Shown here: positions 9,001-22,495 of the stretch, in pieces
Position numbering within the stretch: the first letter of the stretch is position 1
Layout of the letters: the number at the start of each line of letters is the position of its first letter
Assembly: GCF_007954405.1 (NCBI RefSeq)
Contig: NZ_CP042344.1
Span: 2,976,001 to 3,040,000 of the forward strand
DNA: 64,000 nucleotides
Direction: 5' to 3'
From: Comamonas flocculans
GTDB taxonomy: Bacteria; Pseudomonadota; Gammaproteobacteria; Burkholderiales; Burkholderiaceae_C
Notes under the pieces: generated by a model
What the model was told of the DNA's origin: nothing
Seen by the model: the letters and a program-made list of their open reading frames with translations, nothing else
Database searches by the model: none
Program-made: the position numbers and the translations under genes

Positions 9001-9085
9001 GTTCTTCTCCTTGCGAGGTGGTGTGTGGGGACGGTAAAGATAGGCAATGCGCCGGCTTAGCCCGGAAACTTGCGCAAGCAGTATT

Positions 9086-9132
9086 ATCAAACACGCGCCT
9101 ATCCGGTATTGATAGGTGTTTCAGTGTTTGAT
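9086..9132. promoter_or_regulatory. Nested inverted repeats between wrbA and the LysR gene
   Basis: Outer perfect inverted repeat ATCAAACAC (9086-9094) / GTGTTTGAT (9124-9132); inner repeat CCTATC (9098-9103) / GATAGG (9111-9116) with a 7-base spacer. The inner element has the size and T-N11-A character of a LysR box. This AT-rich patch is the only one in the intergenic region and is placed to control both divergent genes. Confidence 0.6.
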
Positions 9133-9150
9133 TGTCCTGAAAATAGAACC

Positions 9151-10089
9151 ATGCATGATTTGAACGACATGCTCTACTTCGCCGAGGTGGTGGAGCGTGG
9201 CAGCTTTGCCGCTGCGGGACGGGCAATGGGCATACCCAAGTCCCGCCTGTCGCGGCGCATCTCCGAGCTGGAGGCGCAGCTGAGCGTGCGCCTGCTGCAG
9301 CGCACCACGCGCACGCTCTCGCTCACGGACGCGGGCCAGGCCTTTCTGGCGCATTGCGTGGCGGTGCGCGAATCGGCGCAGGCAGCGGCCGACGCCGTGG
9401 CCCAGGTGCAGGCCGAGCCGCGCGGCACGGTGCGCGTGACCTGCCCGGTGACGCTGGCGCAGACGGTGCTGGCGCGCCAGCTGCCGTTCTATCTGGACCG
9501 TTACCCCGAGGTGCGGCTGGACTTGCAGATCAGCAACCGCGTGGTGAATGTGGTGGAAGAGGGCGTGGACGTGGCGCTGCGCGTGCGCAGCTCGCTGGAA
9601 GACAGCGGCTCCATGGTGGTCAAGCGCCTGGACGAGGTCTGCCAGGTACTGGTGGCCAGCCCCGCGCAGCTGCGGCGCCAGGGCACGCCGCGCAGTCTGG
9701 ATGAGCTTGCGGGCATGGACGTGCTCATGCCCTCGGAGAGCGAGGGGCGCGCCAGTGTGCGCCTGATAGGCGCGCAGGGCCGGATGCAGACCGTGGAGCT
9801 GGTGCCGCGCTGCGTGATCGACGACCTGCTGTCGCTCAAGTTCGCCGCCATGGCCGGCACCGGCATGGGCTGGCTGCCGGACTACATGGTGGCCCGCGAG
9901 CTGGCCGAGGGCAGCCTGGTGCGGCTGCTGCCCGAATGGAGCCAGCCCAAGTCCATCGTGCATGCGGTGTTTGCCTCGCGCCGTGGCATGTCGCCCGCGG
10001 TGCGCAGTTTTCTCGACTTCCTGGGCGAGGTGTTTCCCACGCATGCGCCCGAATCCTGCGCCGGGCTGCCGGTCACGCCTGCGGCTTGA
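9151..10089 (+). CDS. LysR-family transcriptional regulator
   Basis: 312 residues: an N-terminal winged helix-turn-helix (LNDMLYFAEVVERGSFAAAG, then IPKSRLSRRISELEAQL) and a C-terminal periplasmic-binding-like effector domain (TVRVTCPVTLAQ..., LVASPAQLRRQG, MAGTGMGWLPDYM). This is the standard LTTR length. The ATG at 9151 was chosen because it opens directly on the HTH; upstream codons overlap the operator region. It faces wrbA and probably regulates it and itself, as LysR proteins next to quinone reductases commonly do. Confidence 0.9.
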   Translation: MHDLNDMLYFAEVVERGSFAAAGRAMGIPKSRLSRRISELEAQLSVRLLQRTTRTLSLTDAGQAFLAHCVAVRESAQAAADAVAQVQAEPRGTVRVTCPVTLAQTVLARQLPFYLDRYPEVRLDLQISNRVVNVVEEGVDVALRVRSSLEDSGSMVVKRLDEVCQVLVASPAQLRRQGTPRSLDELAGMDVLMPSESEGRASVRLIGAQGRMQTVELVPRCVIDDLLSLKFAAMAGTGMGWLPDYMVARELAEGSLVRLLPEWSQPKSIVHAVFASRRGMSPAVRSFLDFLGEVFPTHAPESCAGLPVTPAA

Positions 10090-10110
10090 GGCGGGGGTAG
10101 GGCGGGCGCT

Positions 10111-11652
10111 TCAATCCAGCCATTCCCGCGCGCGCCAGGCCTTGAAGAGGGCGCTGCGCAGCGCCTCGGCTGCGGGGCCGACGGCATGCACCTGGGTTTC
10201 GTCGAGCTCCAGGTTGTTCAGGTACTGCAGGCACAGCGTGGCCGGCCAGGGCATGAAGGGCGTGAGGCCGGCCGGAATGAAGCCCAGCGCCAGCGCGGCC
10301 GCGCACACCGCGGGAGCATGGACCTGGCCCGCATCCAGGTGCAGGTAGATCGCATCCATGCGCGCGCGGCACAGTGCGCGCAGTTGGCGCGCCAGGGCCG
10401 TGTGCAAGTCCGGGCCTGCGTGCTGCAGCGTGAGGAAGGCCGCGCCCATGTCTTGCACGACCTGGCTGCTCAGCTGTGTGTCGCCCTCCAGTGCCGGCGC
10501 CCCTTCCTGTTGCGGCAGCAGAGGCAGGCCGATGGCGCGCGCGCCCGGCTGCACGAGCTCGAGCAGCGCGGGTGGCAGCCACACCTGCAGCGGCTCGACC
10601 GGCTGCAGCAGCCTGCAGCTGTGAAAGGCGCTCACGCGCTCGCCCTGGCGGCGCCCCGCGATGCCGCGAAAGCTGGCACTGCCCGGAATCAGCCCGAGCA
10701 GCAGTGCCGTGGGGTGGTAGCAGAGGTGGTTGAAGGTTTTCTGCGTATACGGGTGCGCGGCCACCGCGTGCAGGAAGGCCACGCGTTCCGGCCTGCGGGG
10801 CAGCGCCTCCTGCACCGTGGTGACGAGACGGGTGAACAGCGCGCTGCCGCGCTCGCTCGGGGCGACGACGGCGGTGCCGATTTCCACCGCGGGGTCGTCG
10901 GCCTGTGGCTTGAGCAGCGCGATATGCCCGACGGGGACGCCTTGCTCGCCATGCACCGCCACCCAGGAGGTCAGACGCCCGTCGCTGAGCCTGCCCTGGA
11001 TGCCTTCGGCGGTATACATGTCGGGGTTGGTGTAGGAATAGCCGTAGGTGCGAAACATCAGCCGCGCCAGGTGAATGGCGTCTTCAGGCTGCATCGGCCG
11101 GATGGCGGCCGCCGCCCTGGCCTGGGCGGTGGCATCCGGCGGCTGCGTGGTGTCTGCGGGCGGCGGGTTCGCCGCGCCCGCTGCAGCCTGGGGCAGCATC
11201 CATTGCAGCAGCACGTGGTGGCCTTGCTGGCCCTGGTTGAGCACTTCGCAGTGGTCGGCCAGCCGCTGCATCAGGAAGGCGGCCAGGCCGGCGCCGTCTT
11301 CATCGGCGGCCTCGGGAGCCTGGGGGTCGTAGTGCGGCAGCAGGCTCAGGTCGTAGGGCAGACCGTTGTCCGACAGGCGCAGCTCCAGGGCCGGGCCTTG
11401 CAGCCGGATGCTGGCCTGCAGCTCGTTGCTGGCGTCGTCGCCGGCGTCGTGCCCCAGGTGCAGCACCGTGCCCAGGGCCTCGTCGCAGGCGGCGCAGATG
11501 CGCTGCACGCTGGCATGGTCGAAGCCGAGCAGCTGCGCCTGCTGCTGCAGCACGGCCTGCAGCGGCGCAAGGGCGGCAAGGCTGGCGGGCAGCTGCAGTT
11601 GCAGCCAGGGGCACACCAGCCCTGCGGCGGTGGTGGCCGGCGGCTCATCCAT
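10111..11652 (-). CDS. HATPase (RsbW-like)-GNAT acetyltransferase fusion
   Basis: 513 residues, last gene of a five-gene minus-strand cluster. The N-terminal ~150 residues resemble an anti-sigma-factor kinase domain: N-box-like CDEALGTVLHLG, G1 box LRLSDNGLPYD and G2 DGAGLAAFLMQRLADH. The N-box Asn that holds Mg-ATP is Thr here, so kinase activity is doubtful. After a Pro/Ala linker (about 170-195) comes a GNAT acyltransferase domain (AIRPMQPEDAIHLARLMFRTYGYSY, VGHIALL, VAPSERGSALFTRLV) and a further C-terminal region to the end. It overlaps the upstream ligase gene by 8 bases (ATGGATGA), so the two are coupled. Inference: an acyltransferase whose activity is set by binding a STAS partner; the acyl acceptor is unknown. 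Confidence 0.75.
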   Translation of the reverse strand: MDEPPATTAAGLVCPWLQLQLPASLAALAPLQAVLQQQAQLLGFDHASVQRICAACDEALGTVLHLGHDAGDDASNELQASIRLQGPALELRLSDNGLPYDLSLLPHYDPQAPEAADEDGAGLAAFLMQRLADHCEVLNQGQQGHHVLLQWMLPQAAAGAANPPPADTTQPPDATAQARAAAAIRPMQPEDAIHLARLMFRTYGYSYTNPDMYTAEGIQGRLSDGRLTSWVAVHGEQGVPVGHIALLKPQADDPAVEIGTAVVAPSERGSALFTRLVTTVQEALPRRPERVAFLHAVAAHPYTQKTFNHLCYHPTALLLGLIPGSASFRGIAGRRQGERVSAFHSCRLLQPVEPLQVWLPPALLELVQPGARAIGLPLLPQQEGAPALEGDTQLSSQVVQDMGAAFLTLQHAGPDLHTALARQLRALCRARMDAIYLHLDAGQVHAPAVCAAALALGFIPAGLTPFMPWPATLCLQYLNNLELDETQVHAVGPAAEALRSALFKAWRAREWLD

Positions 11653-12931
11653 GGCGCTGGTCCAGCACGCGCAGCAGCTTGCCGCTGCGGGCGTTGGTCT
11701 GCAGGCCATCGAGCGTCACCGCCTGCACGCGCAGCGGGTGCACCACGCCCTGCTCCAGCAGGTCGCTGAACATGGGGCGTGCGGCATAGAGGGCCCGGGC
11801 AATCTGCGCCGCGCCCAGCTCGCCCAGGCTGGCCGGCTCGGCCAGCGCCAGGCGCAGGCAGCATTCGTCGCGCTCGCCATGGTGCGAGATCAGCAGCTGG
11901 AAGTCCTTGAAGCCCTGCAGCACGCCTTGCGCCTGCAGCGTGGTGAGCGCCTGGCGGATGTCGTCTACGTACAGCGTCATCGGACCCACGCGCGCGCCTT
12001 CCTCGGTGCGCCCCAGCAGGCGAAAGCGCCGCTCGGGCGTGCCCGGCGGGTCCACCCACTCGCCGCGGTCACCCACCGGGTAGCGCACGATGGGCATGAG
12101 GCGGCGCAGCAGGTTGGTGACGACCAGGCGTCCGGGCACCCCCGTCGCGTCAATGGGCGCGCCGCTGCCCTCGTCGATGATCTCCAGCACCGTGCTTTCG
12201 TCGTAGCTGCGGTGCACGCCGGGCTCGGCGTCGGGCTCGGTCCAGCCCAGCTCGCCGTAGTCCACGCCGGCCACGCTGATGGAGCGCACCACGCAGTCCG
12301 GAAACAGGGCCTGCACGCGCGCGATCTGGTCGGCGAACATGGGCTCGCCGGCAAACAGGATGAGGCGCAGGGACAGCCGCTCGCGGTCTTCGGGCGTGAG
12401 CAGCTCCAGCAGCTTCATGAGGGTGGTGGGCACGCCGGCGAGCACGTTCAGGTCGAACTGGCGCCAGATGGCCAGTGCCTCGTGCAGGTCGTCGCCCGCG
12501 ATGGGATAGCCTACGCCCAGGCCCGCCGCCTCGATGACGCGCTGCGAGAACAGGAAGGACGCATAAAGCTTGCCGGCGTAAAACAGGTTGCCCACGCGGT
12601 CGCCGGCGCGCAGCAGCACACGCAGGCGCGCGCCACTTCTTTCGGTGAAGGCCTGCCATTCGGCGTTGGTGAAGACCGAATATTTGGGCTGGCCGGTGGT
12701 GCCGCCGCTCTTGAAGGTGATGCCGCTGTCAAGGGGTGCGGTGAGCACCTGGTTGCCCTGCACGGTGTTGGCGGCCCAGAAGCGCCGGCTGTCCAGCACC
12801 GGGTAGTCGCTCAGGCTGGCGCTGGCGGGCGGCACCTGGGCCCAATAGTCGCGGTAGAAGGGCGAGCGGGCGCGCACGAAGGCGAGCAGCTCGGGCAGCA
12901 GCGAGGGCGGAGGCGGTGAAATCGGGGGCAT
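11645..12931 (-). CDS. PaaK/LuxE-like AMP-forming ligase
   Basis: A 428-residue adenylate-forming enzyme of the phenylacetate-CoA ligase / LuxE superfamily. The N-terminal FVRARSPFYRDYW motif is typical, the phosphate loop is FKSGGTTGQPKYSVF (about residues 72-86), a substrate-adenylate region reads SVAGVDYGELGW, and the hinge motif region is VRYPVGDRGEWV followed by FRLLGRTEEG. It would activate a carboxylic acid as the acyl-AMP and pass it to CoA or a protein. The start at 12931 has AAGGAGA at the proper distance; the ATG 18 bases upstream would put that site inside the gene. Second of three ligase modules in this cluster, coupled to the GNAT fusion downstream. Confidence 0.8.
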   Translation of the reverse strand: MPPISPPPPSLLPELLAFVRARSPFYRDYWAQVPPASASLSDYPVLDSRRFWAANTVQGNQVLTAPLDSGITFKSGGTTGQPKYSVFTNAEWQAFTERSGARLRVLLRAGDRVGNLFYAGKLYASFLFSQRVIEAAGLGVGYPIAGDDLHEALAIWRQFDLNVLAGVPTTLMKLLELLTPEDRERLSLRLILFAGEPMFADQIARVQALFPDCVVRSISVAGVDYGELGWTEPDAEPGVHRSYDESTVLEIIDEGSGAPIDATGVPGRLVVTNLLRRLMPIVRYPVGDRGEWVDPPGTPERRFRLLGRTEEGARVGPMTLYVDDIRQALTTLQAQGVLQGFKDFQLLISHHGERDECCLRLALAEPASLGELGAAQIARALYAARPMFSDLLEQGVVHPLRVQAVTLDGLQTNARSGKLLRVLDQRHG

Positions 12932-12961
12932 GGGAGGCTCTCCTTGCACTGGCCGGCGCGT

Positions 12962-15478
12962 TCAGGCGCCGACGCGGTGGTCGCAGATGTGGATGATCTT
13001 GCCGCTCACGGGGTTGCGCGTGAAGCCGCTGTCCTCGTGCACGCTGATGCGCAGCGCCAGCGCGATGCCCAGGCTCTGGCAGTCCTGCAGCGGCGGATAG
13101 CTGGCCAGCAGGTGGGCTATGGCGGCCTGGTCGTCGGCGCTGTTCCACTGGTTGTCCAGGCGGATTTCCAGTTCGGTGTGCGTCTGGTGCGCATGCAGGT
13201 GCAGCTGCACCGGGCCGGGGTAGGCAAAGCGTTCGCCCAGCAGCTTGACAAAGCTGTCGTAGCGCATCAGCGGACCGGCCTTGAACACGTCGCCCAGGCG
13301 CCCCAGCAGTTCGAAGCGCGGCTCCTGGCGTCCGCAGGCGCAGGGGCCGGGCAGCCAGCGGCCCAGGTCGCCGATTTCGTAGCGCTCGATGCGCGGCAGG
13401 CCGCGCACCAGCGGGGTGAAGATCAGGCGCCCGACGGCCTCGCCCTGCACCGGGGTGTCGCTGTCCAGCTCGACGATCTCCAGCGTCTGCAGCCGCGTGT
13501 ACAGGTGGTGCACGCCGCCGCCGCCGTGCGCGCACTGGTAGCCCATGGGGCCGGCGTCGTTGGAGCCGTAGGCGGCCGAGCGCACCAGGGCCACGCCGCA
13601 GTCCTGGGTGAGAAAGCGCTGCTGGGCGCCGGAGAGCGCTTCACCGCCGTAGAAGATTTTCTGCACCCCGCCCCAGGCGCGCAGGCGCTGGCCCTGGGCC
13701 TTGAACAGGGCCAGCAGGTGCGGCGGCACGCCGATCAGGGTGTTGGCGCCGTGGGCGATGATCTGCTCGGCGATGAAGTCGTAGTCCGGCGACATGGCCA
13801 TGGGCAGCTGGCGCACCTTCAGCCGCTCCAGAATGCCCCAGAAGCTGATGAAGCCGCCGTAGAGGCTGCCCGCGGGCAGCAGGTTCATCACGCAGTCGCG
13901 CCCGGGCTCCAGCCCCGCGGCCACCAGGCCGTCGCCCGAAGTGGCCATCTGCACGTCGAAGTCGCTCCAGCGGTAGCCCGCGTAGGCGATCTTGCCGCTG
14001 GAGCCGCCGCTGCGCACGATGACGCCGGCCTTCGGGTCCACCCCTTCGAGTGCCTGAAAGCCCGCCTTGCTCAGGATGGGCGCGGCCGGCGGCGGCATGC
14101 GCTCGGGCGCTTCCAGCGCGTCGATCTGGCCATGCTCGCGCAGCAGCTCGGGGCCGTCGACCGAGACGCGCCGCGCCAGCTGCTGCAGCGCGTACATGCC
14201 GTCGTGCGGCGCGCCTAGGTAGCTGTCCACCATCTCGCCGGGACGGGTGATGCGCGTGACCCCGGCCGAGAGCAGCAGCCGCGCGAGCGGCGCGATGCTG
14301 GCCAGCCCCGCCGCCAGGCCGCAGGTCTGCAGCCAGGCGCGCATGGGGCGCAGCTGCGCCGCAAGCTGGCTGCGCTGCACCGGCTTGAGCCAGATGCTGC
14401 GAAAGAGTGGTGAGGGGCGCAGTCCCGGGCGGGTGTCCAGCAGGATGCGCCAGCCGCCCGCGGGGTCTTCGATCACCCGGGTCAGGCCCAGCGCCTGCTC
14501 GCTGCGCACCACGCTCACCACGCTGGTGATTTCGGCCTGCTCGGCGCTGTCCGGCTGTTGTGCGGCGATGGCGGGGGAGATGCGCGTCAGCAGCGCCGCC
14601 AGGCGCTGCGCCAGCGCGTGCAGCCCGGCCTCGTCGGTTTCAGCCATCAATGTTTGCGGGCTGGAGCAGGCCTGCTGGTCCAGGCGGCAGACGTCGCGCG
14701 CAAAGCCTTCCAGCGCCGCGTCGTCGTCCAGGCTGTCGGCCGCCAGGTAGGCAAACGACACCTTGTGCCCCCAGGCGATCAGGCGCGCGTGGCCGGGCAC
14801 CATGGAGCGCACCGCGGCCATGGCCTTTTCGCCGCCCCAGGCGGAGACCGCGTCGGCGCAGGCCATGAGCTGGCGCAGCGCCTGCTGCTCGCTGGAGGGC
14901 AGGGCGAGCACCGCGATGTAGTCGGCCAGGTGCCCGGACACGTCGGCCTGCACCAGCGCCTGGGCAAACAGCTGGGCCACGTGGCCGTCGCGCGCGCTGG
15001 TCTTGACCACGTTGACGTTGCCCGTGAGCAGTCCCTCCACCAGGCCGAGCGCGGCCACGGTGAAGACGTTGGATGGCGCGATGTGCACCACGCAGCCGCA
15101 GGCCGCCCAGGCCTCGAACTGGCGGCCGGGGTAGCGCCGCTGCAGCGTGCCGGGGTAGTGGCTGCCCAGCTCGCTGCGCAGTTTTTCGTGCAGTGCGTCC
15201 TGGTCCAGGATGGCGGCCATGGCCTGCAGCATGGCCAGCGCGTCGGCCTCGGTGCTGGTGCGCAGTGCCTCTCGCAGCAGGGCCGGGTAGCAGCCGGTGC
15301 GGTCGCTGATCTGCCGCGATACGCTGTGGCAGGCCGCGACCAGCGCCTGCAGCGGGAAGGGCCGGGGCAGGGTGGCGTCGATGTGTGCGGACAAGCCCTG
15401 CAGCGCGGCGGGCAATTCTTCAGCCTGCAGCCAGCGCCCGAACCAGTAGCAGGCGGTGGGGGCCAGGGGGGAGCTCAT
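12962..15478 (-). CDS. LuxC acyl-CoA reductase fused to PaaK/LuxE-like ligase
   Basis: An 838-residue two-domain protein. Residues ~1-435 match LuxC (fatty acyl-CoA/acyl-protein reductase, aldehyde-dehydrogenase fold): CGCVVHIAPSNVFT at 127-140, VVKTSARDG at 158-165 and the nucleophile motif DQQACSSPQTL with Cys271. Residues ~465-838 are a PaaK/LuxE-like adenylating domain with phosphate loop VRSGGSSGKIAYAGY (488-502) and a Cys-containing CACGRQEP segment near the C-terminal hinge. LuxC and LuxE are normally separate subunits of a fatty-acid reductase making aldehyde for luciferase; here activation and reduction are in one chain. The start MSSPLAPTACYWF (15476-15478) excludes an N-terminal extension lying in a dispersed repeat. 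No luciferase is present. Confidence 0.8.
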   Translation of the reverse strand: MSSPLAPTACYWFGRWLQAEELPAALQGLSAHIDATLPRPFPLQALVAACHSVSRQISDRTGCYPALLREALRTSTEADALAMLQAMAAILDQDALHEKLRSELGSHYPGTLQRRYPGRQFEAWAACGCVVHIAPSNVFTVAALGLVEGLLTGNVNVVKTSARDGHVAQLFAQALVQADVSGHLADYIAVLALPSSEQQALRQLMACADAVSAWGGEKAMAAVRSMVPGHARLIAWGHKVSFAYLAADSLDDDAALEGFARDVCRLDQQACSSPQTLMAETDEAGLHALAQRLAALLTRISPAIAAQQPDSAEQAEITSVVSVVRSEQALGLTRVIEDPAGGWRILLDTRPGLRPSPLFRSIWLKPVQRSQLAAQLRPMRAWLQTCGLAAGLASIAPLARLLLSAGVTRITRPGEMVDSYLGAPHDGMYALQQLARRVSVDGPELLREHGQIDALEAPERMPPPAAPILSKAGFQALEGVDPKAGVIVRSGGSSGKIAYAGYRWSDFDVQMATSGDGLVAAGLEPGRDCVMNLLPAGSLYGGFISFWGILERLKVRQLPMAMSPDYDFIAEQIIAHGANTLIGVPPHLLALFKAQGQRLRAWGGVQKIFYGGEALSGAQQRFLTQDCGVALVRSAAYGSNDAGPMGYQCAHGGGGVHHLYTRLQTLEIVELDSDTPVQGEAVGRLIFTPLVRGLPRIERYEIGDLGRWLPGPCACGRQEPRFELLGRLGDVFKAGPLMRYDSFVKLLGERFAYPGPVQLHLHAHQTHTELEIRLDNQWNSADDQAAIAHLLASYPPLQDCQSLGIALALRISVHEDSGFTRNPVSGKIIHICDHRVGA

Positions 15479-15517
15479 GGTGCGGTGTCCTTGCAATGGC
15501 GGGTTTGGTGTTTCTCG

Positions 15518-15576
15518 GTATTCATAGCTGCTGGCGCTTGACTGGCAAGCGTTTGAGCCGTTTTTCATTCATATTC
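15518..15576 (+). repeat. Dispersed ~57-bp palindromic repeat, intergenic copy
   Basis: Core CATAGCTGCTGGCGCTTG then ACTGG and CAAGCGTTTGAGCCGTTTTT. It lies in the 114-base gap between the LuxE-like gene and the LuxC fusion, in the same orientation as the copy in tex. The stem is formed by GCGCTTG/CAAGCGT. Confidence 0.8.
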
Positions 15577-15592
15577 TTGCGGCAGCCAGGCA

Positions 15593-16762
15593 TCAGCCCG
15601 CAGGCAGCAGCTCGGCCGCCGCGGCCGCGCAGCTCTTGTTCGAGGAGGTGCCCGCCCGGCCCAGGATCTCGAACCACGGGGTGGGCGTGCCGCAGCCGCA
15701 GCTGTGTGCGGGGTGCAGCACGCCGAGGTCGCCCATCACCACGCTGTGCGCCGGCACGCTGGTGATGTAGGGAGAGAGGAAGGACAGGAAGCCCGCCTGC
15801 CCGTGCGCCAGCGGCCCGAGCGTGGCCACGTCGCGCACCAGCACGCGCGACCAGGTGGGCTGGTGCAGGTGGTTGTGCTTGCAGCTGGTGTAGGGGATGC
15901 TGTGCTCCACCGAGCCGAAGGTCTCCACGATGCGCTCGCCGGCGATGCCCAGCTGGCGCGCGATGCTGGCGTGCATTGCCTCCTTGGCGATGGCCTGGTC
16001 GGCATGGCCCTTCCAGCCACCGCCCAGGATGACCGCGCTGCCCGGGGCCAGCTGCAGCGGCGGGACGCCCATTTTTTCCAGCCGCTGCAGCGTGAAGTGC
16101 AGGAAGGCCGGAAAGCCGATGATGCGCACCGGCGTGCTGCCCTCGGCCCAGCGCTGCAGCCTGGCCACCGCGCCAAAGGCGTCGAACTCGTGCTGCCCCT
16201 GGCCGAGCGCGCGCAGCGTCCAGAACACCTCGGCCGCGGGGGCGTAGCGCATCAGGTACTGGTTGGTGTTGGAGGTGCCCACGCGCAGGCCGTCGCAGGG
16301 CTCGTAGGCGTTCACCAGGTAGTGCGCGGGCTCGCTGCTGACCATGCCGCGCGCCTGCATGCAGTCGTCGGCCATGCGCCGCCCGTGTCCTATGGTGAAG
16401 GCGTCGAAGAACATCTGCGACTTCTGCCCCGTGGTGCCGGACGAAGTCAGGTGCAGCGTGATGGCGTCTTCGGGCACGCTCAGGATCTCATGCTGCTTGA
16501 AGAAATTGGCATGCACCGGCGGCAGCGCGATCAGGTCGTCGAGGGTGCGCAACGCATCCACGTCCACCTGGTGCTGCGCCAGCAGCCTGGCATACCAGGG
16601 CGAGCGCTGCTGGTGCCAGCGCGTGATGTCGCGCATGGCGGTGATGAAGGCCGCCTCGCTGTCCGCTTCGGGCAAATAGGGCGTGGTGATTGCGCAGAAC
16701 TGCTGCACGCTGGGCGGCGCGGCAAGCTCGGGCTGCGCGCCGGCGGCGCAATTGACTCGCAT
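15593..16762 (-). CDS. LuxE-like acyl-protein synthetase
   Basis: 389 residues, close to the ~370 of LuxE. Family signatures: FFKQHEILSV near residue 88, the phosphate loop LTSSGTTGQKSQMFFD, YEPCDGLRVGTSNTNQYLM, FPAFLHFTLQRLEKM, ILGGGWKGH and the C-terminal GDLGVLHPAHSCGCGTPTPWFEILGR. LuxE activates fatty acid as acyl-AMP and transfers it to a Cys before reduction by LuxC, so it should supply the LuxC fusion encoded next. The start at 16762 has GGAGA upstream and leaves 99 bases to the permease gene. Part of a minus-strand cluster with the permease, LuxC fusion, second ligase and GNAT fusion. No lux oxygenase exists in the window. Confidence 0.82.
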   Translation of the reverse strand: MRVNCAAGAQPELAAPPSVQQFCAITTPYLPEADSEAAFITAMRDITRWHQQRSPWYARLLAQHQVDVDALRTLDDLIALPPVHANFFKQHEILSVPEDAITLHLTSSGTTGQKSQMFFDAFTIGHGRRMADDCMQARGMVSSEPAHYLVNAYEPCDGLRVGTSNTNQYLMRYAPAAEVFWTLRALGQGQHEFDAFGAVARLQRWAEGSTPVRIIGFPAFLHFTLQRLEKMGVPPLQLAPGSAVILGGGWKGHADQAIAKEAMHASIARQLGIAGERIVETFGSVEHSIPYTSCKHNHLHQPTWSRVLVRDVATLGPLAHGQAGFLSFLSPYITSVPAHSVVMGDLGVLHPAHSCGCGTPTPWFEILGRAGTSSNKSCAAAAAELLPAG

Positions 16763-16861
16763 GGTGTCGTCTCCGTGGCAAGGCCTCTGGCGGGCTCTGA
16801 ATGGCTGCAGTCTAGCCTGCGCGGCGCGCGTGCCCGCGGCAGGCGGCGGGCGTCGGGCGTT

Positions 16862-18637
16862 TCAGTGCTCGAAATGCAGGCGCACGAAGGACTGTCCCGC
16901 GCTCGCGCCGGTGCTGACCCGGTCGGCCAGGTAGTGCAGCAGCTGCCCCGACAGGGGCGCCAGCGCGGCGTCGATGGCGCTGTCGTCCGCGCCGTCCAGC
17001 AGGGCCGCGGGATCGGGCAGCTGCGCCTGGCCGCCGCCCAGGCGCAGCGGCGCGCCACTGTGCAGCAGCTCGATGTCCAGATTGAATTCGTCGAACTGCC
17101 CGCGGATGGCACTGAGCCGGCGCGCGTCCGTGCCGGCGGGTGCGGGGCTGGCCAGGATGGCCTCGGCGGCCTCCAGCGCGGCCATGGCGGCGCGCTGGAC
17201 CACGTCGCGGCGCGCGCCCCAGGCGGCCCCGCGGGTCTCGACGAAGTTGGTGATCTCGCCGTGCAGCTCCTCAGCCGGCGCGTGCAGGGCCTGGCGCGCG
17301 CGCTGCGCCACGCCCAGGCGGAACAGCAGGTTCAGCGCGATCACCAGCACCCCTGCCACGACAAAACCGTTGCCCAGCAAAAAGCGCAGCCCCTCGGGCG
17401 CCTGCTGCGCCAGCTGCGGCATCTGCATCACCGCCAGCCCTGCGGACAGCGACAGGCCGACGGCGAACAGCACCCGGCTGTCGATCGCGCGCGAGACCGT
17501 CAGCTGCATGCCGGAGACCATCAGATAGCCCGCCGCGTACAGGCCCACCGCGCCGAGCACCGGCTCGGGCACCAGCGTGAGCGCCAGCGTCAGCTTGGGC
17601 AGGAAGGCCGCCAGCGCCAGCAGCGCCGCCACCGCCAGGCCGATGGCGCGGGCCGTGGAGCGCGTGGCATAGGCCAGCGCGATGTTGGCCGAACTGGTGG
17701 AGGTAGGCAGCGCGCCGAGCAGGCCCATGAGCAGGTTGCCCACGCCGTTGGCCTGTATGCCCCTGCCTATGGCCGCCATGTCGGCGCGACGCCAGTCGGC
17801 GTCTTCCATCTTGTCGAGCATGATCACGCTGCCCAGGGTGTCGAGCTGCGAGAGGATGGCCACCAGCGCCACGGCCAGCAGCACGTCGCCCTGCAGGTGC
17901 CAGCGCGGCGCGGCCAGCTCGGGCAGGGCCAGCAGCGCGGCGTCCGACAGGGCCTGCGTGCCCTCCAGCCTGCCGAGCAGCGCCGCCACCGCCACGCCGG
18001 CCGCCATGGCCAGCAGCAGGGCCATCAGGCGCAGGCGCCTGCCCCAGACCGACAGGCCGACAATGCCCGCCAGCGTGACGCCGGCCACCGCGGCGCTGGC
18101 GGCGTCGACGCTCCACTGCCCGGGCGTGAGCCCCAGCGCGCGCTGGATGGAGCCCGCCACCAGCGCCACACCCGCCATGCAGATCACCGTGCCGACGACG
18201 GGCGGCGGAAACAGCGGGCGGGTGCGGCGCACCAGCGGCACCATGGCCAGGGACACCAGCCCGTGCACCAGCGCGGCCGGCGCCATGGCGCCCAGGCCGT
18301 AGGCGCCCAGCAGACTGGCGGCCAGCGTGATCATCATGGCGCTGGGAATGTTCACCACCAGCACGCCCGCGCCCCAGCGCCCGCCCCAGGCCTGCATGGC
18401 GGTGGTCAATGCCATCGCCAGCAGGGTCAGCGCGACCATGGTCTGGGTGTCCGCGCGCGACAGGCCCGCCAGGCGCGCGGTCACCAGCACGTAGGCGATG
18501 AAGGCCATGGCGGTGGCCGCATGCTGCAGCGCCAGTACCCACAGGGCCGACACCGGCGGGCGCTCGTTGGCAGCGTAAGCGAGGTCGGGCACGCGACGGT
18601 GCGGGGCGGGGCGGGCAGGCAGGTGGAACAAGGGCAT
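16862..18637 (-). CDS. NCS2 (SLC23) permease with C-terminal HATPase-like domain
   Basis: 591 residues. The first ~440 form a nucleobase/ascorbate-type transporter with about 12-14 hydrophobic segments, the QH motif in segment 1 (WVLALQHAATAM) and the NCS2 signature region RGIQANGVGNLLMGLLGALP followed by SANIALAYATR. Residues ~463-591 are not part of the family: they resemble a degenerate HATPase domain (RRDVVQRAAMAALEAAEAI for the N-box helix, LDIELLHSGAPL where DxGxP is expected, then LLHYLADRV...FVRLHF). The N-box Asn and G1 Asp are both lost, so ATP binding is unlikely. The start at 18637 puts the chain shortly before the first membrane segment. Divergent from the STAS gene by 87 bases. 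Substrate unknown; a sensory or STAS-docking role for the tail is inference. Confidence 0.8.
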   Translation of the reverse strand: MPLFHLPARPAPHRRVPDLAYAANERPPVSALWVLALQHAATAMAFIAYVLVTARLAGLSRADTQTMVALTLLAMALTTAMQAWGGRWGAGVLVVNIPSAMMITLAASLLGAYGLGAMAPAALVHGLVSLAMVPLVRRTRPLFPPPVVGTVICMAGVALVAGSIQRALGLTPGQWSVDAASAAVAGVTLAGIVGLSVWGRRLRLMALLLAMAAGVAVAALLGRLEGTQALSDAALLALPELAAPRWHLQGDVLLAVALVAILSQLDTLGSVIMLDKMEDADWRRADMAAIGRGIQANGVGNLLMGLLGALPTSTSSANIALAYATRSTARAIGLAVAALLALAAFLPKLTLALTLVPEPVLGAVGLYAAGYLMVSGMQLTVSRAIDSRVLFAVGLSLSAGLAVMQMPQLAQQAPEGLRFLLGNGFVVAGVLVIALNLLFRLGVAQRARQALHAPAEELHGEITNFVETRGAAWGARRDVVQRAAMAALEAAEAILASPAPAGTDARRLSAIRGQFDEFNLDIELLHSGAPLRLGGGQAQLPDPAALLDGADDSAIDAALAPLSGQLLHYLADRVSTGASAGQSFVRLHFEH

Positions 18638-18724
18638 GCGCAGGCAGGGACTGGAGTGAACGCTATCATCCGCGATATCCGCATTGCGCCGGCCGAAGCT
18701 GCGCGTTCCGAGAGGCATTCACCC

Positions 18725-19057
18725 ATGGACATCGTTCCCGAGACCACCGCCACGGCCACCATCGTGCCGCTGCAGGGGCAGATCAACAGCGCCAATGCGG
18801 CGGAAGCGGAATCGCGGCTGCTGGCCTTAGTCGATGGCGGTGCGCGCAACCTGGTGCTGGATTTTTCCGGGCTCAACTACATCTCCAGCGCCGGCCTGCG
18901 CCTGGTGCTGGTGCTGGCCAAGCGCATGAAGCAGGAGGGCGGACGCCTGGTGCTGTGCGCGATGCAGCCGCACGTGCGCGAGGTGTTCGAGATCAGCGGC
19001 TTTCTCGCCATCCTGGACGTGCAGGCCACGCGCCAGGATGCGCTGGCCAGGTTCTAG
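18725..19057 (+). CDS. STAS-domain anti-sigma factor antagonist
   Basis: A 110-residue single STAS domain of the SpoIIAA/RsbV type: IVPLQGQINSANAAEAESRLLAL, NLVLDFSGLNYISSAGLRLVLVLAKRM, and LVLCAMQPHVREVFEISGFLAIL. The Ser of the ISSAG motif is the expected phosphorylation site. When unphosphorylated, such proteins capture a partner kinase and release its target. The kinase partner is encoded 42 bases downstream, and two more kinase-like domains are encoded on the opposite strand, fused to a GNAT protein and a permease. A much longer in-frame extension upstream is antisense to the permease and was rejected; the ATG at 18725 gives the normal STAS length. Confidence 0.9.
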   Translation: MDIVPETTATATIVPLQGQINSANAAEAESRLLALVDGGARNLVLDFSGLNYISSAGLRLVLVLAKRMKQEGGRLVLCAMQPHVREVFEISGFLAILDVQATRQDALARF

Positions 19058-19099
19058 CGCCCATCGCCTTGTTGCACACCCCCGCGCTGCGGCGTCCAC

Positions 19100-19570
19100 A
19101 TGACGGTTGGCACAACACCCGAGCCCTGGCCCGTCTGGCAGCAAGCTCCGCATGAGTTCGCCCCGGACAGCGGCGCCCAGGCGGTGGCCGCGTCGCTGGC
19201 CTGGCTGGAGGCATTGTGTGAACAACTGGACTTGCCGGCGCAGCTGGGCTTTGCCGTCGGTCTGTGCGCGGACGAGGCGCTGGCCAACGTCACCGCCAAT
19301 GCGCGCGCGCCGGGCGGCGCACCGGCGCAGGTGTGGCTGGCGTTTGGCCGGCTCGAAGGCGGGATGGGCCTGCTGGTGGCGGACGATGGAGCGCCCTTCG
19401 ATCCCACGCACAAGGCGAGCCCCGAGCTTGCAGCATCGCTCGAAGAGGCCGTGCCCGGCGGGCATGGACTGCGCCTGATGCGCCACTACACGCGCGCCAT
19501 GCACTACCGGCGCCTGCCGGAGCGCAACGAGCTGCTGCTGGTGTTTGCGCTCCAGGGCAGCGCCGATTAG
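19100..19570 (+). CDS. RsbW-type ATP-binding kinase / anti-sigma factor
   Basis: A 156-residue GHKL/HATPase_c_2 protein. The N-box is intact (CADEALANVTANA with Glu and Asn), as are the G1 box LLVADDGAPFDP and the G2 segment PGGHGLRLMRHY. This is the arrangement of RsbW/SpoIIAB serine kinases that phosphorylate a STAS antagonist. It follows the STAS gene on the same strand, presumably as an operon. Of the three HATPase-like domains in this locus it is the only one with all nucleotide-binding residues. No sigma factor is encoded nearby, so its target may be another protein; the acyl-chemistry cluster is the obvious candidate by position. Confidence 0.88.
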   Translation: MTVGTTPEPWPVWQQAPHEFAPDSGAQAVAASLAWLEALCEQLDLPAQLGFAVGLCADEALANVTANARAPGGAPAQVWLAFGRLEGGMGLLVADDGAPFDPTHKASPELAASLEEAVPGGHGLRLMRHYTRAMHYRRLPERNELLLVFALQGSAD

Positions 19571-19731
19571 GTCCATGCGGCGCAACGCCGTGGAGCCATG
19601 GCTGCGCCGTTGCTGCTTTAGCGGCGCAAGCCATGTAACATGCGCTGACGGGAGAAATTCTTTGGCTTGGTGATGCTGCGTGCGCCGCGGCCTGTCGCGC
19701 GGACGCGTGGCGGACTGTGGAGGAGTCACCC

Positions 19732-21222
19732 ATGCAGCTGCCCATACGGCTCGACGGCGCATCGGGCAAGAATCTGCAGACGCGTATTGCCGGGCAGATC
19801 CGTACCCTGATTCTGGATGGTCGGCTGGCGCCGGGCGCGCGCATGCCGGCCAGCCGTGAACTGGCCGCCGACCTCAAGGTGTCGCGCAACACCGTGATGG
19901 GCGCGTATGCGCGGCTGGTGGCCGAGGGCCTGATCGAGGCGCGCGAGCCGGCCGGCACCTTCGTGACCGCACGCCCGCTGCACGAAGGGCCGTCGGTCCT
20001 GCCCCTGGCGCCCAGCCACTTCGCCGCGCCAGAGCCGCGGCGTCAGGGACGCCATCTGGCGCTGCGCGTGCAGTCCCATCAGGTGCTGCCGCCGCACGCC
20101 AGCGAACTGCCGTTCGACTTCTGGGTGGGACGCCCCGACGCGCGGCTCTTTCCGCTGCGGCTCTGGCAGTCGCTGCTCATGCGCATGCTGCGCGGCAACG
20201 CCCGGCACCTGTGCGACTACGGTGACCCGCAAGGCCTGCATGCCCTGCGCGTGGCCATCGCAACGCATGTGGGTGCGACGCGCGGCATTGCCACCGAACC
20301 CGGGCGCATCGTCATCACCAACGGCATACAGGAGGGGCTGAACCTGCTGGCTTGCCTGTTGATCAAGCCCGGCGTGCAGGTGGCGGTCGAAAACCCCTGT
20401 TACCGTGGTGCGGCCAATGTCTTCATCAACCATGGCGCGACGCTGCTGCCGGTGCGCGTGGACCGCGACGGCATAGACCCGGCGCGCCTGCCCGAGGCCG
20501 CTGCGCTCGTCTACACCACCCCCTCGCACCAATACCCGCTCGGGGCCACGCTCTCGTTGCCCCGGCGCCAGGCCTTGCTGGACTGGGCGCGTGCCAGCGG
20601 CGGAATCATCGTCGAGGACGACTACGACAGCGACTTCTTCTATGACGGCACGCCGCTGCCGGCGCTCAAGAGCCTGGACCGGGACGACGTGGTGATCTAC
20701 CTGGGCACTTTCTCCAAGAGCCTGGGCGCGGGTCTGCGCATAGGCTACATGGTCCTGCCGGCCGATCTGGTCGAGCCCAGCTGCCATGCCAAGGCCCTGC
20801 TCAACAATTGCCAGCCTTGGCTGGAACAGGCGGCGCTTGCGGCCTTCATTGCCGAAGGCGGCTATGCACAGCACCTGCGGCGCATGCGCCAGTCCTATGC
20901 CGCCCGGCGCAACCACCTGTGCGCCGGGCTCGCGCACTTTCTGCCGCAATGGTGGGTCGATGGCCGGGAGGGCGGCATGCACGTGGTGGTGCATCTGCCA
21001 GCCCACGAGGGCAGTGCGGGTGAGGTGGAGACGCTGGCGCGCGCCCGGGGAGTGGGCGTCTACGGTATCGACAAGGGCAATGCCTTGATGCTCGACGTAG
21101 CGGCCGACGACCCCTTGCGGCGCGTGCTTCTGCTGGGCTATGCCGCGCTCGACGAGACTGAAATCAGCGAGGCGCTGCTGCGCATGCGCCGCGCACTGGC
21201 GGCGACGCCGGCGCTTGCATAG
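19732..21222 (+). CDS. MocR/PdxR-type regulator (GntR HTH plus aminotransferase domain)
   Basis: 496 residues. The N-terminal ~75 form a GntR winged helix-turn-helix (LQTRIAGQIRTLILDGRLAPG, SRELAADLKVSRNTVMGAY), then a class I aminotransferase-like domain with the PLP-binding Lys in TFSKSLGAGLRIGYM and YTTPSHQYPLG. MocR proteins sense PLP or amino compounds and control vitamin B6, GABA or taurine genes. No such gene is adjacent, so the target is unknown. GGAGGA precedes the ATG at 19732; the ATG 15 bases upstream would bury that site. The downstream neighbour ccmI is convergent. Confidence 0.9.
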   Translation: MQLPIRLDGASGKNLQTRIAGQIRTLILDGRLAPGARMPASRELAADLKVSRNTVMGAYARLVAEGLIEAREPAGTFVTARPLHEGPSVLPLAPSHFAAPEPRRQGRHLALRVQSHQVLPPHASELPFDFWVGRPDARLFPLRLWQSLLMRMLRGNARHLCDYGDPQGLHALRVAIATHVGATRGIATEPGRIVITNGIQEGLNLLACLLIKPGVQVAVENPCYRGAANVFINHGATLLPVRVDRDGIDPARLPEAAALVYTTPSHQYPLGATLSLPRRQALLDWARASGGIIVEDDYDSDFFYDGTPLPALKSLDRDDVVIYLGTFSKSLGAGLRIGYMVLPADLVEPSCHAKALLNNCQPWLEQAALAAFIAEGGYAQHLRRMRQSYAARRNHLCAGLAHFLPQWWVDGREGGMHVVVHLPAHEGSAGEVETLARARGVGVYGIDKGNALMLDVAADDPLRRVLLLGYAALDETEISEALLRMRRALAATPALA

Positions 21223-21265
21223 GAGCACCGGCAGCCGGCGCCCGCGACGTGGCCCGCGCGCGGCC

Positions 21266-22495
21266 TCAGCGGCCGACGACGCGGTCGAGCACGATGCGCA
21301 CCTCCTTGCTGCCCACTGCGACCTGCTCGACGCTGCCTTCGATGTCGCCCGGCTGCGGCGCCGGCGTGCCGAGCCGCGAGATGCGCGCCACCACGCTCAC
21401 CTGGGCGAACCTGGACAGGCGCATGTCCGGCGCCATGGCGCTGCTGTCGTCGAGCGTGAACGAGACCGGCCAGCCGCTGGCGCGGGTACGCACGGCGGCC
21501 AGCGGCATGGGTGGTCCATCGCCCGCGCGCGCGAAGATGAACAGCGTGTCGGCCGCCGCCACCTGGCCGCGCAGGCGCTCGTCGAGCGTGACCGTGCCGT
21601 GGATGCTGGCGTCGCCGGTCTGCCCGGGTGCCTGCGGCGTGGCTGCCTGCGGCGTGGCCGGCGCTTGGCCGCGGGCGCGGGCAATGAGGTCGTCGATGCG
21701 CTTGGCGTCCCCGGTGTCGGCAGGCAGCAGGGCCTTGAGCCTTTGCCAGTGGGCCAGCGCCGCCGCCCGGTCGTCCTGCTGGAACGCCGCCAGGCCCGCG
21801 AACGCCAGCGCGTTGAGATTGTTCGGGTCGATCTCAAGGGCCCGCTGCACCATCCGGGCGGGTTCGCCCGAGAGGTCGCGCTGGTGCGCGATCGCCAGGG
21901 TGTTGGCGTACTCGACCCAGAGATCGGCGTTGTCGCCGCTCAGCTTCGTCGCCTTGCCGTAGGCCGTCAGCGCGTCGCTGATGCGGCCCATCTGGTAGTA
22001 GGAGCGCGCCAGCAGCACCCAGCCGTCGGCGTCACCACCGTCGCGCTCCAGGCGTGCCTGCAGCGCGGCCACCGCGGCGTCGTCCTGGGCGTGCGGCGCG
22101 CCCCCCGCGCTGGCGCTGCGTGCGGCTGCCGCAGGCGGATGGAGCGCCCCAGGCTGTCCCACCGTCAAGTAGACGCCCACCGCCAGCAGCGGCAGTACCA
22201 CGGCGGTGGCCAGGGCGATGGCCCAGTTGGCCTGCTGGCTCGACTGGGCCCGAGCGTGCGCCGCCTGGTCGGCCTGCAGCGCCTGGCGCTGCAGCTCCAG
22301 GCGCGCCCTCTCGTGCTCGGCTGCGCCCACATCGCCCGCAGCCAGCGCCGCATCGAGCTCGCGCAGGCCGTCGGCGAGCACCGCCAGATCCTCGCCGCGC
22401 TGCAGCGGGCGCTGGCTGCGGCGCAGCAGGGGGAACAGCACCGCCAGCAGTGCAGTGAGCACCATGGCCGCGGTCAGCGCTACAAAACCGAGCAT
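21266..22495 (-). CDS. ccmI: CcmI, cytochrome c maturation TPR protein
   Basis: 409 residues with the CcmI plan: an N-terminal membrane helix ending in LFPLLRR, a cytoplasmic coiled-coil region (ELDAALAAGD...HERARLELQRQAL), a second helix (WAIALATAVVLPLLAVGVYLTV), TPR repeats in the middle (WVLLARSYYQMGRISDALTAY and following) and the C-terminal beta domain (DTLFIFARAGDGPPMPLAAV, FTLDDSSAMAPDMRLS). CcmI presents apocytochrome c to the haem ligation complex. The other ccm genes are not in the window; instead it follows haoB and haoA on the same strand, suggesting a role in assembling the eight-haem HaoA. The 154-base gap before it could hold its own promoter. Confidence 0.88.
   Translation of the reverse strand: MLGFVALTAAMVLTALLAVLFPLLRRSQRPLQRGEDLAVLADGLRELDAALAAGDVGAAEHERARLELQRQALQADQAAHARAQSSQQANWAIALATAVVLPLLAVGVYLTVGQPGALHPPAAAARSASAGGAPHAQDDAAVAALQARLERDGGDADGWVLLARSYYQMGRISDALTAYGKATKLSGDNADLWVEYANTLAIAHQRDLSGEPARMVQRALEIDPNNLNALAFAGLAAFQQDDRAAALAHWQRLKALLPADTGDAKRIDDLIARARGQAPATPQAATPQAPGQTGDASIHGTVTLDERLRGQVAAADTLFIFARAGDGPPMPLAAVRTRASGWPVSFTLDDSSAMAPDMRLSRFAQVSVVARISRLGTPAPQPGDIEGSVEQVAVGSKEVRIVLDRVVGR

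Follow-up and report, generated by a model that had tools for sequence, protein, structure and literature searches.

We describe a locus in Comamonas flocculans (positions 10111–19570 of a 64,000-nucleotide stretch of contig NZ_CP042344.1, hereafter the window) in which genes for a STAS antagonist and a free-standing RsbW-type kinase, the core of a partner switch, lie beside an NCS2-family permease gene and a four-gene cassette encoding a LuxE-like synthetase, a LuxC reductase fused to a PaaK-like ligase, a second PaaK-like ligase and a HATPase–GNAT fusion protein. The switch genes and the lux-like cassette form an associated set, because they are adjacent in at least four genomes of two genera and both are encoded in all nine cassette genomes; their adjacency is not confined to the window genome, the outcome that would have refuted the earlier reading. 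The whole explanation that we put forward, to which we give about an even chance, is that a SpoIIE/STAS/RsbW switch acts on client proteins carrying RsbW-like domains of their own and that the cassette is a leupeptin-type pathway. The locus is conserved and more coherent than an earlier, sequence-only reading had noted, and both its chemistry and the part played by the permease are read differently here.

Conservation of the cassette and its association with the switch

The locus contains the following features.

19100–19570, plus strand: free-standing RsbW-type serine kinase (HATPase_c_2, E 3.9e-15; N-box ExxxN intact, E59 and N63)
18725–19057, plus strand: STAS antagonist of the SpoIIAA/RsbV type (STAS, E 7.1e-23; predicted phosphoserine Ser55, the second S of ISSAGL)
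18638–18724, no strand: divergent intergenic region between the STAS and permease genes, from the sequence
16862–18637, minus strand: NCS2-family permease (Xan_ur_permease, E 1.5e-38) with a putative degenerate HATPase-like C-terminus (about 16862–17275)
15593–16762, minus strand: LuxE-like acyl-protein synthetase (LuxE, E 8.7e-32; predicted acyl-accepting Cys378)
12962–15478, minus strand: LuxC reductase (about 14168–15259; LuxC, E 1.4e-88) fused to a PaaK-like ligase (about 12962–14131)
11645–12949, minus strand: PaaK-like AMP-forming ligase (AMP-binding, E 1.2e-7; PaaK structures, E 2.2e-10)
10111–11652, minus strand: HATPase_c_2 domain (about 11188–11619; E 3.5e-12) fused to a GNAT acetyltransferase (about 10114–11115; Acetyltransf_1, E 8.7e-6)

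All seven reading frames are present in the window, and six of the seven proteins pass the curated Pfam cut-off with the expected domains; the reading-frame check, Pfam and the coordinates together bear out the gene families and spacings that had been described. The ligase half of the LuxC fusion falls below the Pfam cut-off for AMP-binding (E 1.6e-4), yet PaaK structures align with it. Transcription on the minus strand runs from the permease through LuxE, LuxC–PaaK and PaaK to HATPase–GNAT, and the STAS and RsbW genes run in the opposite direction. The PaaK and HATPase–GNAT genes overlap by 8 bases (11645–11652) and 99 bases separate LuxE from the permease; gaps of 30 and 114 bases are obtained with the ATG at 12931 and the ATG at 15478, respectively. 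A simple scan of 18638–18724 found no sigma-70-like site. The locus is flanked by genes for a LysR regulator, a MocR/PdxR-type regulator and CcmI. Our domain survey covered ten genes (9070–22495), among which neither LuxA, LuxB or LuxD nor a sigma factor was found; the absence of luciferase at the locus, as previously described, is thereby confirmed for these genes, and bioluminescence was rejected as a function on the same ground.

The genes for LuxE, LuxC–PaaK, PaaK and HATPase–GNAT are consecutive, on one strand and in fixed order in all nine cassette genomes. These are the window genome (G000), its sister G270, G283 and six loci from a species-level scan, which belong to Paenacidovorax caeni (G213), Comamonas badia (G196), a Giesbergeria metagenome-assembled genome, Ottowia thiooxydans, Simplicispira metamorpha and Verticiella sediminum. 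The scan compared the HATPase–GNAT alignment with one genome per species (84,980) through two narrow peptide patterns, and its count is thus a lower bound. In a large protein database, of which the 7,999 most word-sharing candidates were scored, 35 entries match the HATPase–GNAT protein at E <= 1e-3, its own copy included. The full-length LuxC–PaaK fusion occurs in 5 of 299 family genomes, and 23 other matching genomes show the LuxC part only. Within an order-wide sample of 399 genomes, the full HATPase–GNAT protein was found in the window genome only, with five weak matches that lack the HATPase part. The HATPase–GNAT search of plasmids returned none, and viral contigs searched with a Syntrophorhabdaceae relative gave no match.

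STAS and a free RsbW are encoded in 9/9 cassette genomes, as is a SpoIIE match at E <= 2e-51. In G000, G270, G196 and G283, about 10 kb at most separates the cassette from the STAS and RsbW genes. They are on a separate contig in G213, where the contig end, compared with G283, fits adjacency; in G686, the cassette and the STAS/RsbW genes are both on short contigs. The SpoIIE phosphatase, which was missing from the earlier gene list, is encoded far from the locus in the window genome (G000:C1:1851948-1852517); in C. badia, P. caeni and G283, its gene immediately precedes LuxE. Several of the SpoIIE phosphatases carry HAMP and Cache domains, and the window genome's copy shows the SpoIIE domain only (Pfam).

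RsbW homologues follow the cassette more closely than SpoIIE does. In the family sample, a close RsbW homologue (E <= 1e-40, a cut set after seeing a gap in the list between 4e-46 and 7e-19) is found in 5/5 cassette genomes versus 1 of 294 others (G256; Fisher 3e-10), and an RsbW match at E <= 1e-6 in 5/5 versus 24 of 294 (29 in all; Fisher 6e-6), both Fisher values being without correction for kinship among five cassette genomes that represent two genera. In G095, a congeneric genome that lacks the cassette, nothing matches RsbW at 1e-6, and SpoIIE is matched no better than at E 9.5e-6. SpoIIE was rejected as a marker of the system, and RsbW is the better one, because SpoIIE is too common in the family (66 of 299 genomes match at 1e-20).

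The residues expected of a working switch are conserved in its free components. In alignments of 21 rows each, every set counting one gene twice, both N-box residues of RsbW (Glu and Asn of ExxxN) and the STAS serine are each present in 21/21 rows, and the G1 and G2 regions of RsbW also align. The RsbW of G283, excluded from these rows by a length filter, has the N-box as well. STAS aligns with SpoIIAA of 1th8 and 1tid at the DSSGL site, where Ser55 falls on a position occupied by Ser in 1th8 and by Ala in 1tid. A single-sequence search with RsbW found no solved structure at E < 0.1.

HATPase-like domains on the acetyltransferase and the permease

Two HATPase-like domains fused to other proteins had been proposed from the sequence. 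The GNAT-bound one is upheld by Pfam; the one on the permease has no Pfam match, and the case for it consists of a profile comparison and a motif order recognised by eye.

A profile of 32 HATPase–GNAT rows, mostly metagenome proteins from which three truncated or shifted matches and a duplicate of the window protein were excluded, matches RsbW of 6m36 at E 1.9e-8. The N-box Asn is lost in all 30 rows with a residue at that position (27 T, 2 I and 1 M), and E58 (30/30), G97 (31/31), and D101 and L123 (both 32/32) are invariant. The loss of the N-box Asn while these four residues are kept suggests that the GNAT-bound HATPase may be a docking pseudokinase. The same two-domain architecture occurs in a wider HATPase_c_2–GNAT family of 399 proteins that match P0035; among the best 120 of the 399 (P0156–P0274), the hosts are Syntrophorhabdaceae, Desulfobacteraceae, Phycisphaerae and others. 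In contrast to the cassette copies, 16 of 18 picked members of this wider family keep the N-box Asn. In a tree of the GNAT part, the GNAT domains of the wider family group with the cassette ones: the cassette proteins form one clade (100/100), beside one wider-family HATPase–GNAT (98/98) and separate from the GNATs of the Enterobacterales cassettes, with the latter and the Streptomyces GNAT on long branches and several forks unsettled. A reasonable reading of this tree is that the cassette took over a pre-existing HATPase–GNAT.

Within the wider family, the member P0215 has an extra C-terminal domain. A distantly related proteobacterium has a GNAT of this family (L213 9042-10529) among genes that look by eye like exopolysaccharide-synthesis genes, and no match to lux-like genes was found nearby.

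The permease C-terminus is present in 586 proteins, of which the best 120 all carry the permease domain. A profile of this C-terminus (127 sequences) matches a broad HATPase profile at P 1.2e-4 over 124 columns, the free RsbW profile at P 3.4e-4 and the profile of the cassette-GNAT HATPase at P 0.0015, compared with P 0.075–0.79 over 10–33 columns for seven unrelated control profiles; an earlier comparison with HATPases, made without controls, had given P 0.0064 and 0.0026. In an order-wide sample, with scoring limited to 12 candidates per genome, the domain was found in 4 of 300 genomes, the window genome included.

The distribution of the permease is distinct from that of the cassette. The permease adjoins STAS/RsbW in 6/9 cassette genomes. 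Among 13 SpoIIE neighbourhoods without a full-length cassette, chosen in family genomes from the best SpoIIE scores and not at random, five (G256, G182, G180, G228 and G013) contain the permease with its C-terminal domain and STAS, and these five genomes also have a free RsbW. In G308, from another family, SpoIIE, RsbW, STAS and the permease lie together; the permeases of G398 and G473 contain a GAF domain, and the SpoIIE match near them is no more than weak. Furthermore, the permease gene of G270 (L046 6980-7285) is reduced to its two ends by a 1,662-base deletion, 13 bases being common to both flanking alignment blocks, and the stub has no ATG at the expected position; the four cassette genes are complete in that genome, as are those for STAS and RsbW. 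Because the permease is present without the cassette and is largely deleted in a genome that bears the cassette, it looks like a separate output or partner of the same switch. The proposal that the precursor enters through the permease does not fit these observations, and the permease was rejected as a precursor importer.

Two kinds of related permeases were also observed. Permeases of the same family in L145 (8584-11661) and L146 (7530-10106) carry a GAF domain in front and a degenerate HATPase-like domain behind, and are possibly sensor–permease–switch fusions. A second, diverged permease with its own C-terminal domain adjoins the first around RsbW in L045 (433-5213), L166 (5089-10025) and L168 (3154-7424), and a second copy is also found in L147 and G213.

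Cassette enzymes and the likely product

The catalytic residues of the cassette enzymes are conserved. LuxE and LuxC align with LuxE and LuxC of 7xc6, and the LuxE Cys and LuxC Cys301 (numbering of the 868-residue protein) are kept in 13/13 relatives, as are the C-terminal SGK lysine of the LuxC-fused ligase and the C-terminal GK lysine of the separate PaaK-like ligase. The ligase P-loops vary in their letters among the relatives, with a divergent one in the PaaK of L215. The likeness to luxCDABE extends to sequence matches of LuxE and LuxC that include the acyl-carrying cysteines. Unlike in luxCDABE, LuxC is fused to a ligase, a further ligase and a GNAT stand alongside, and no luciferase or LuxD is present among the examined genes.

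Similar enzyme sets occur in distant bacteria. An Enterobacterales-like genome (G966) encodes the same three enzymes with a GNAT that lacks a Pfam HATPase; its only HATPase_c_2 match is below the cut-off, and it has no free RsbW over the cut-off. The stretch beside its cassette, which holds pckA by the annotation of other matches, is about 79% identical to E. coli. The Salmonella enterica plasmid CP054717 carries genes annotated as an acyl-protein synthase, an AMP-binding protein, a phenylacetate-CoA ligase family protein and a GNAT, and the plain GNAT is the last gene in both Enterobacterales cassettes. Streptomyces NBC_00158 encodes the same four functions in a different order, with a different GNAT and an MFS transporter, and these four functions are also found on two more actinomycete plasmids. 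E. coli genomes searched with the DNA of the Salmonella plasmid cassette gave none. On the conjugative IncF plasmids of S. enterica CP054717.1 (L218 7830-13588) and CP053580.1 (L222 4866-10620), the enzyme cassette lies near recombinases; the GNAT of CP053580.1 is unannotated, its matches being split over two reading frames.

We favour a peptide aldehyde over a lipid as the product because LuxE, the LuxC–ligase, the ligase and the GNAT travel together across phyla. The most likely product of the cassette is a small N-acetylated peptide aldehyde akin to leupeptin, and so probably a protease inhibitor. Leupeptin is N-acetyl-Leu-Leu-argininal, and its leupABCD genes were reportedly described by Li et al. 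(2020, Angew. Chem.) as built of separate ligases and accessory enzymes. The hosts of leupABCD are Photorhabdus, Xenorhabdus and Klebsiella michiganensis. Both gene sets have four genes, and the one acetyltransferase, two ligations and one reduction that leupeptin needs are functions encoded by the window cassette. In size, the Salmonella cassette measures 5,759 bp and the window cassette, including the HATPase domain, 6,652 bp, and the distance from the start of the leupA primer to the end of the leup cluster is 5,781 bp. The two gene sets differ in that the window acetyltransferase has a HATPase domain and the genome encodes SpoIIE, STAS and RsbW. Among the matches listed, no NCBIfam model names the cassette proteins as leupeptin enzymes.

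According to the available portions of the published accounts, leupABCD in Klebsiella comprises four genes over 5.8 kb (CP011636.1, 315,353–321,183) with an adjacent transporter (PMC8283571), and the operon makes leupeptin, which is undetectable in usual culture, with sialic acid as a strong elicitor and mucin as a weak one; induction by sialic acid was followed with a transcriptional reporter (PMC11480411). A genome table for Photorhabdus, in the portion available, lists a "Leupeptin" region (PMC12542766). The word leupeptin is absent from the antiSMASH 7 and 8 papers; in the available portions of the sources, it appears only among the references of PMC9177418 and PMC10676414 and is absent from PMC11547657.

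The earlier claim that this gene set belongs to no described system divides into two parts. For the enzyme half it is probably wrong, the enzymes having probably been described already as leupABCD. For the regulated form, the combination of a LuxE/LuxC cassette with SpoIIE, STAS and RsbW was not found described in the titles and abstract starts of the open-access literature. The new element is likely to be partner switching that acts on an enzyme, and perhaps on a permease, with binding by STAS as the predicted contact.

A partner switch with enzyme and permease clients

The likeness to the RsbU/RsbV/RsbW and SpoIIE/SpoIIAA/SpoIIAB switches lies in the PP2C phosphatase, the STAS serine motif and the intact N-box of RsbW. 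In contrast to those switches, no sigma factor is present among the ten window genes, and the candidate outputs are the GNAT and the permease with their degenerate HATPases. In the Hsb and Sia switches, the diguanylate cyclase is a cyclic-di-GMP synthase that is not known to carry an RsbW-like domain and is acted on by the middle protein of the switch; in the window system, by contrast, an RsbW-like domain is fused to the enzyme. Both HsbR/HsbA/HsbD and SiaABCD of Pseudomonas aeruginosa act on a diguanylate cyclase, as stated in the available portions of PMC5085249 and PMC8457831.

We propose that the outputs of the switch are proteins with RsbW-like domains of their own, and not, or not only, a sigma factor. 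RsbW would phosphorylate STAS at Ser55, and the SpoIIE phosphatase, encoded elsewhere in the window genome, would dephosphorylate it upon a signal. Once dephosphorylated, STAS would bind the degenerate HATPase carried by the GNAT, probably also the one on the NCS2 permease, and switch the activity of these proteins. Within the pathway, the GNAT, as the product of the last cassette gene, would cap an amino acid, the two PaaK-like ligases would form amide bonds, and LuxE would load the product on its Cys and pass it to LuxC, which would reduce the carboxyl end to the aldehyde. From sequence we infer the phosphorylation of STAS, its binding, the sign of the control and the product. More tentatively, at somewhat below even confidence, the locus may be a sigma-factor-free network, where a single STAS would gate an enzyme and a permease directly through fused pseudokinase copies of its kinase. 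One branch of such a network would toggle a peptide-aldehyde protease-inhibitor pathway post-translationally, and the other would gate a nucleobase-type permease as the mirror image of the SLC26 carriers, in which the STAS domain is within the carrier itself.

Several observations weigh against the proposed explanation. Within the stretches examined, the switch genes are not beside the cassette in 3/9 genomes (G687, G688, where they are about 97 kb apart, and G689), and SpoIIE lies away from the locus in the window genome and is common in the family at 1e-20. The G1 Asp95 of the GNAT-bound HATPase is Asn in 4/30 rows, so decay of the domain is possible. In the tree, with its long branches, the nearest relatives of the cassette GNAT are not the GNATs of the Enterobacterales cassettes; it falls within the wider HATPase–GNAT family. 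The identification of the permease C-terminus as a HATPase is a modest profile match, and against the wider-family GNAT HATPase alone no match was obtained (P 0.39). Regarding the product, the putative link to leupABCD (AB185_06775-06790, CP011636.1) draws on size and pathway logic, and two published leup primers match neither the Enterobacterales nor the Salmonella relatives.

The earlier reading had suggested a lipid or signal, and the cassette could accordingly make a fatty aldehyde, an acyl signal or a lipid, with an acyl chain as the substrate of LuxE and LuxC, as it is in luminous bacteria. The best solved matches are indeed LuxE and LuxC of 7xc6 with the same cysteines, and both proteins also turn up in the flagellin-modification literature (available portions of PMC7874193 and PMC4875605). 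However, LuxA, LuxB and LuxD are missing from the ten genes examined, the NCBIfam LuxE and LuxC equivalog scores are far below the cut-off, and the two PaaK-type ligases and the GNAT that accompany LuxE/LuxC in Burkholderiales, Enterobacterales and Streptomyces fit N-acylation and amide ligation better than a simple reduction of fatty acids. This cross-phylum make-up fits an N-acetylated peptide aldehyde better, and we regard a lipid or fatty-acyl product as quite unlikely.

The remaining alternatives concern control rather than chemistry. The GNAT-bound HATPase may be an evolutionary leftover, with the cassette and the switch merely co-inherited and no direct control between them; this is unlikely but deserves serious weight, given the uniform loss of the N-box Asn (30/30), the loss of Asp95 in 4/30 rows, a wider HATPase–GNAT family that has no known link to the cassette, and the non-adjacency in G687, G688 and G689. 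A leftover is expected to decay, yet E58, G97, D101 and L123 are invariant (in the 30 to 32 of 32 rows that have a residue at the position), linkage is maintained in two genera with differing arrangements, and co-occurrence with the cassette is tighter for RsbW homologues than for SpoIIE. Alternatively, the GNAT could be purely regulatory and acetylate the catalytic lysines of the ligases, so that the switch would work through protein acetylation, as Pat and AcuA acetylate acyl-CoA synthetases. The C-terminal GK lysine kept in both ligases and the different GNATs in the cassettes of three lineages agree with this idea, which we consider slightly more improbable than a fatty-acyl product. Against it, two Enterobacterales cassettes have a plain GNAT in the same last position, and in one of these the genome has no free RsbW that passes the cut-off, which is what is expected of a pathway enzyme; the N-acetyl cap is also required by leupeptin itself.

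If the proposed control of a leupeptin-type cassette by RsbW-like-domain clients is true, partner switching, known mainly for sigma factors, would reach enzymes and transporters by domain grafting, and a pseudokinase tag would suffice to make a protein a client of the switch. The locus would then offer a simple and testable example of a natural-product pathway under post-translational control, and RsbW-like domains on enzymes would serve as a marker for finding further clients. In addition, leupeptin-type cassettes would extend to environmental Burkholderiales.

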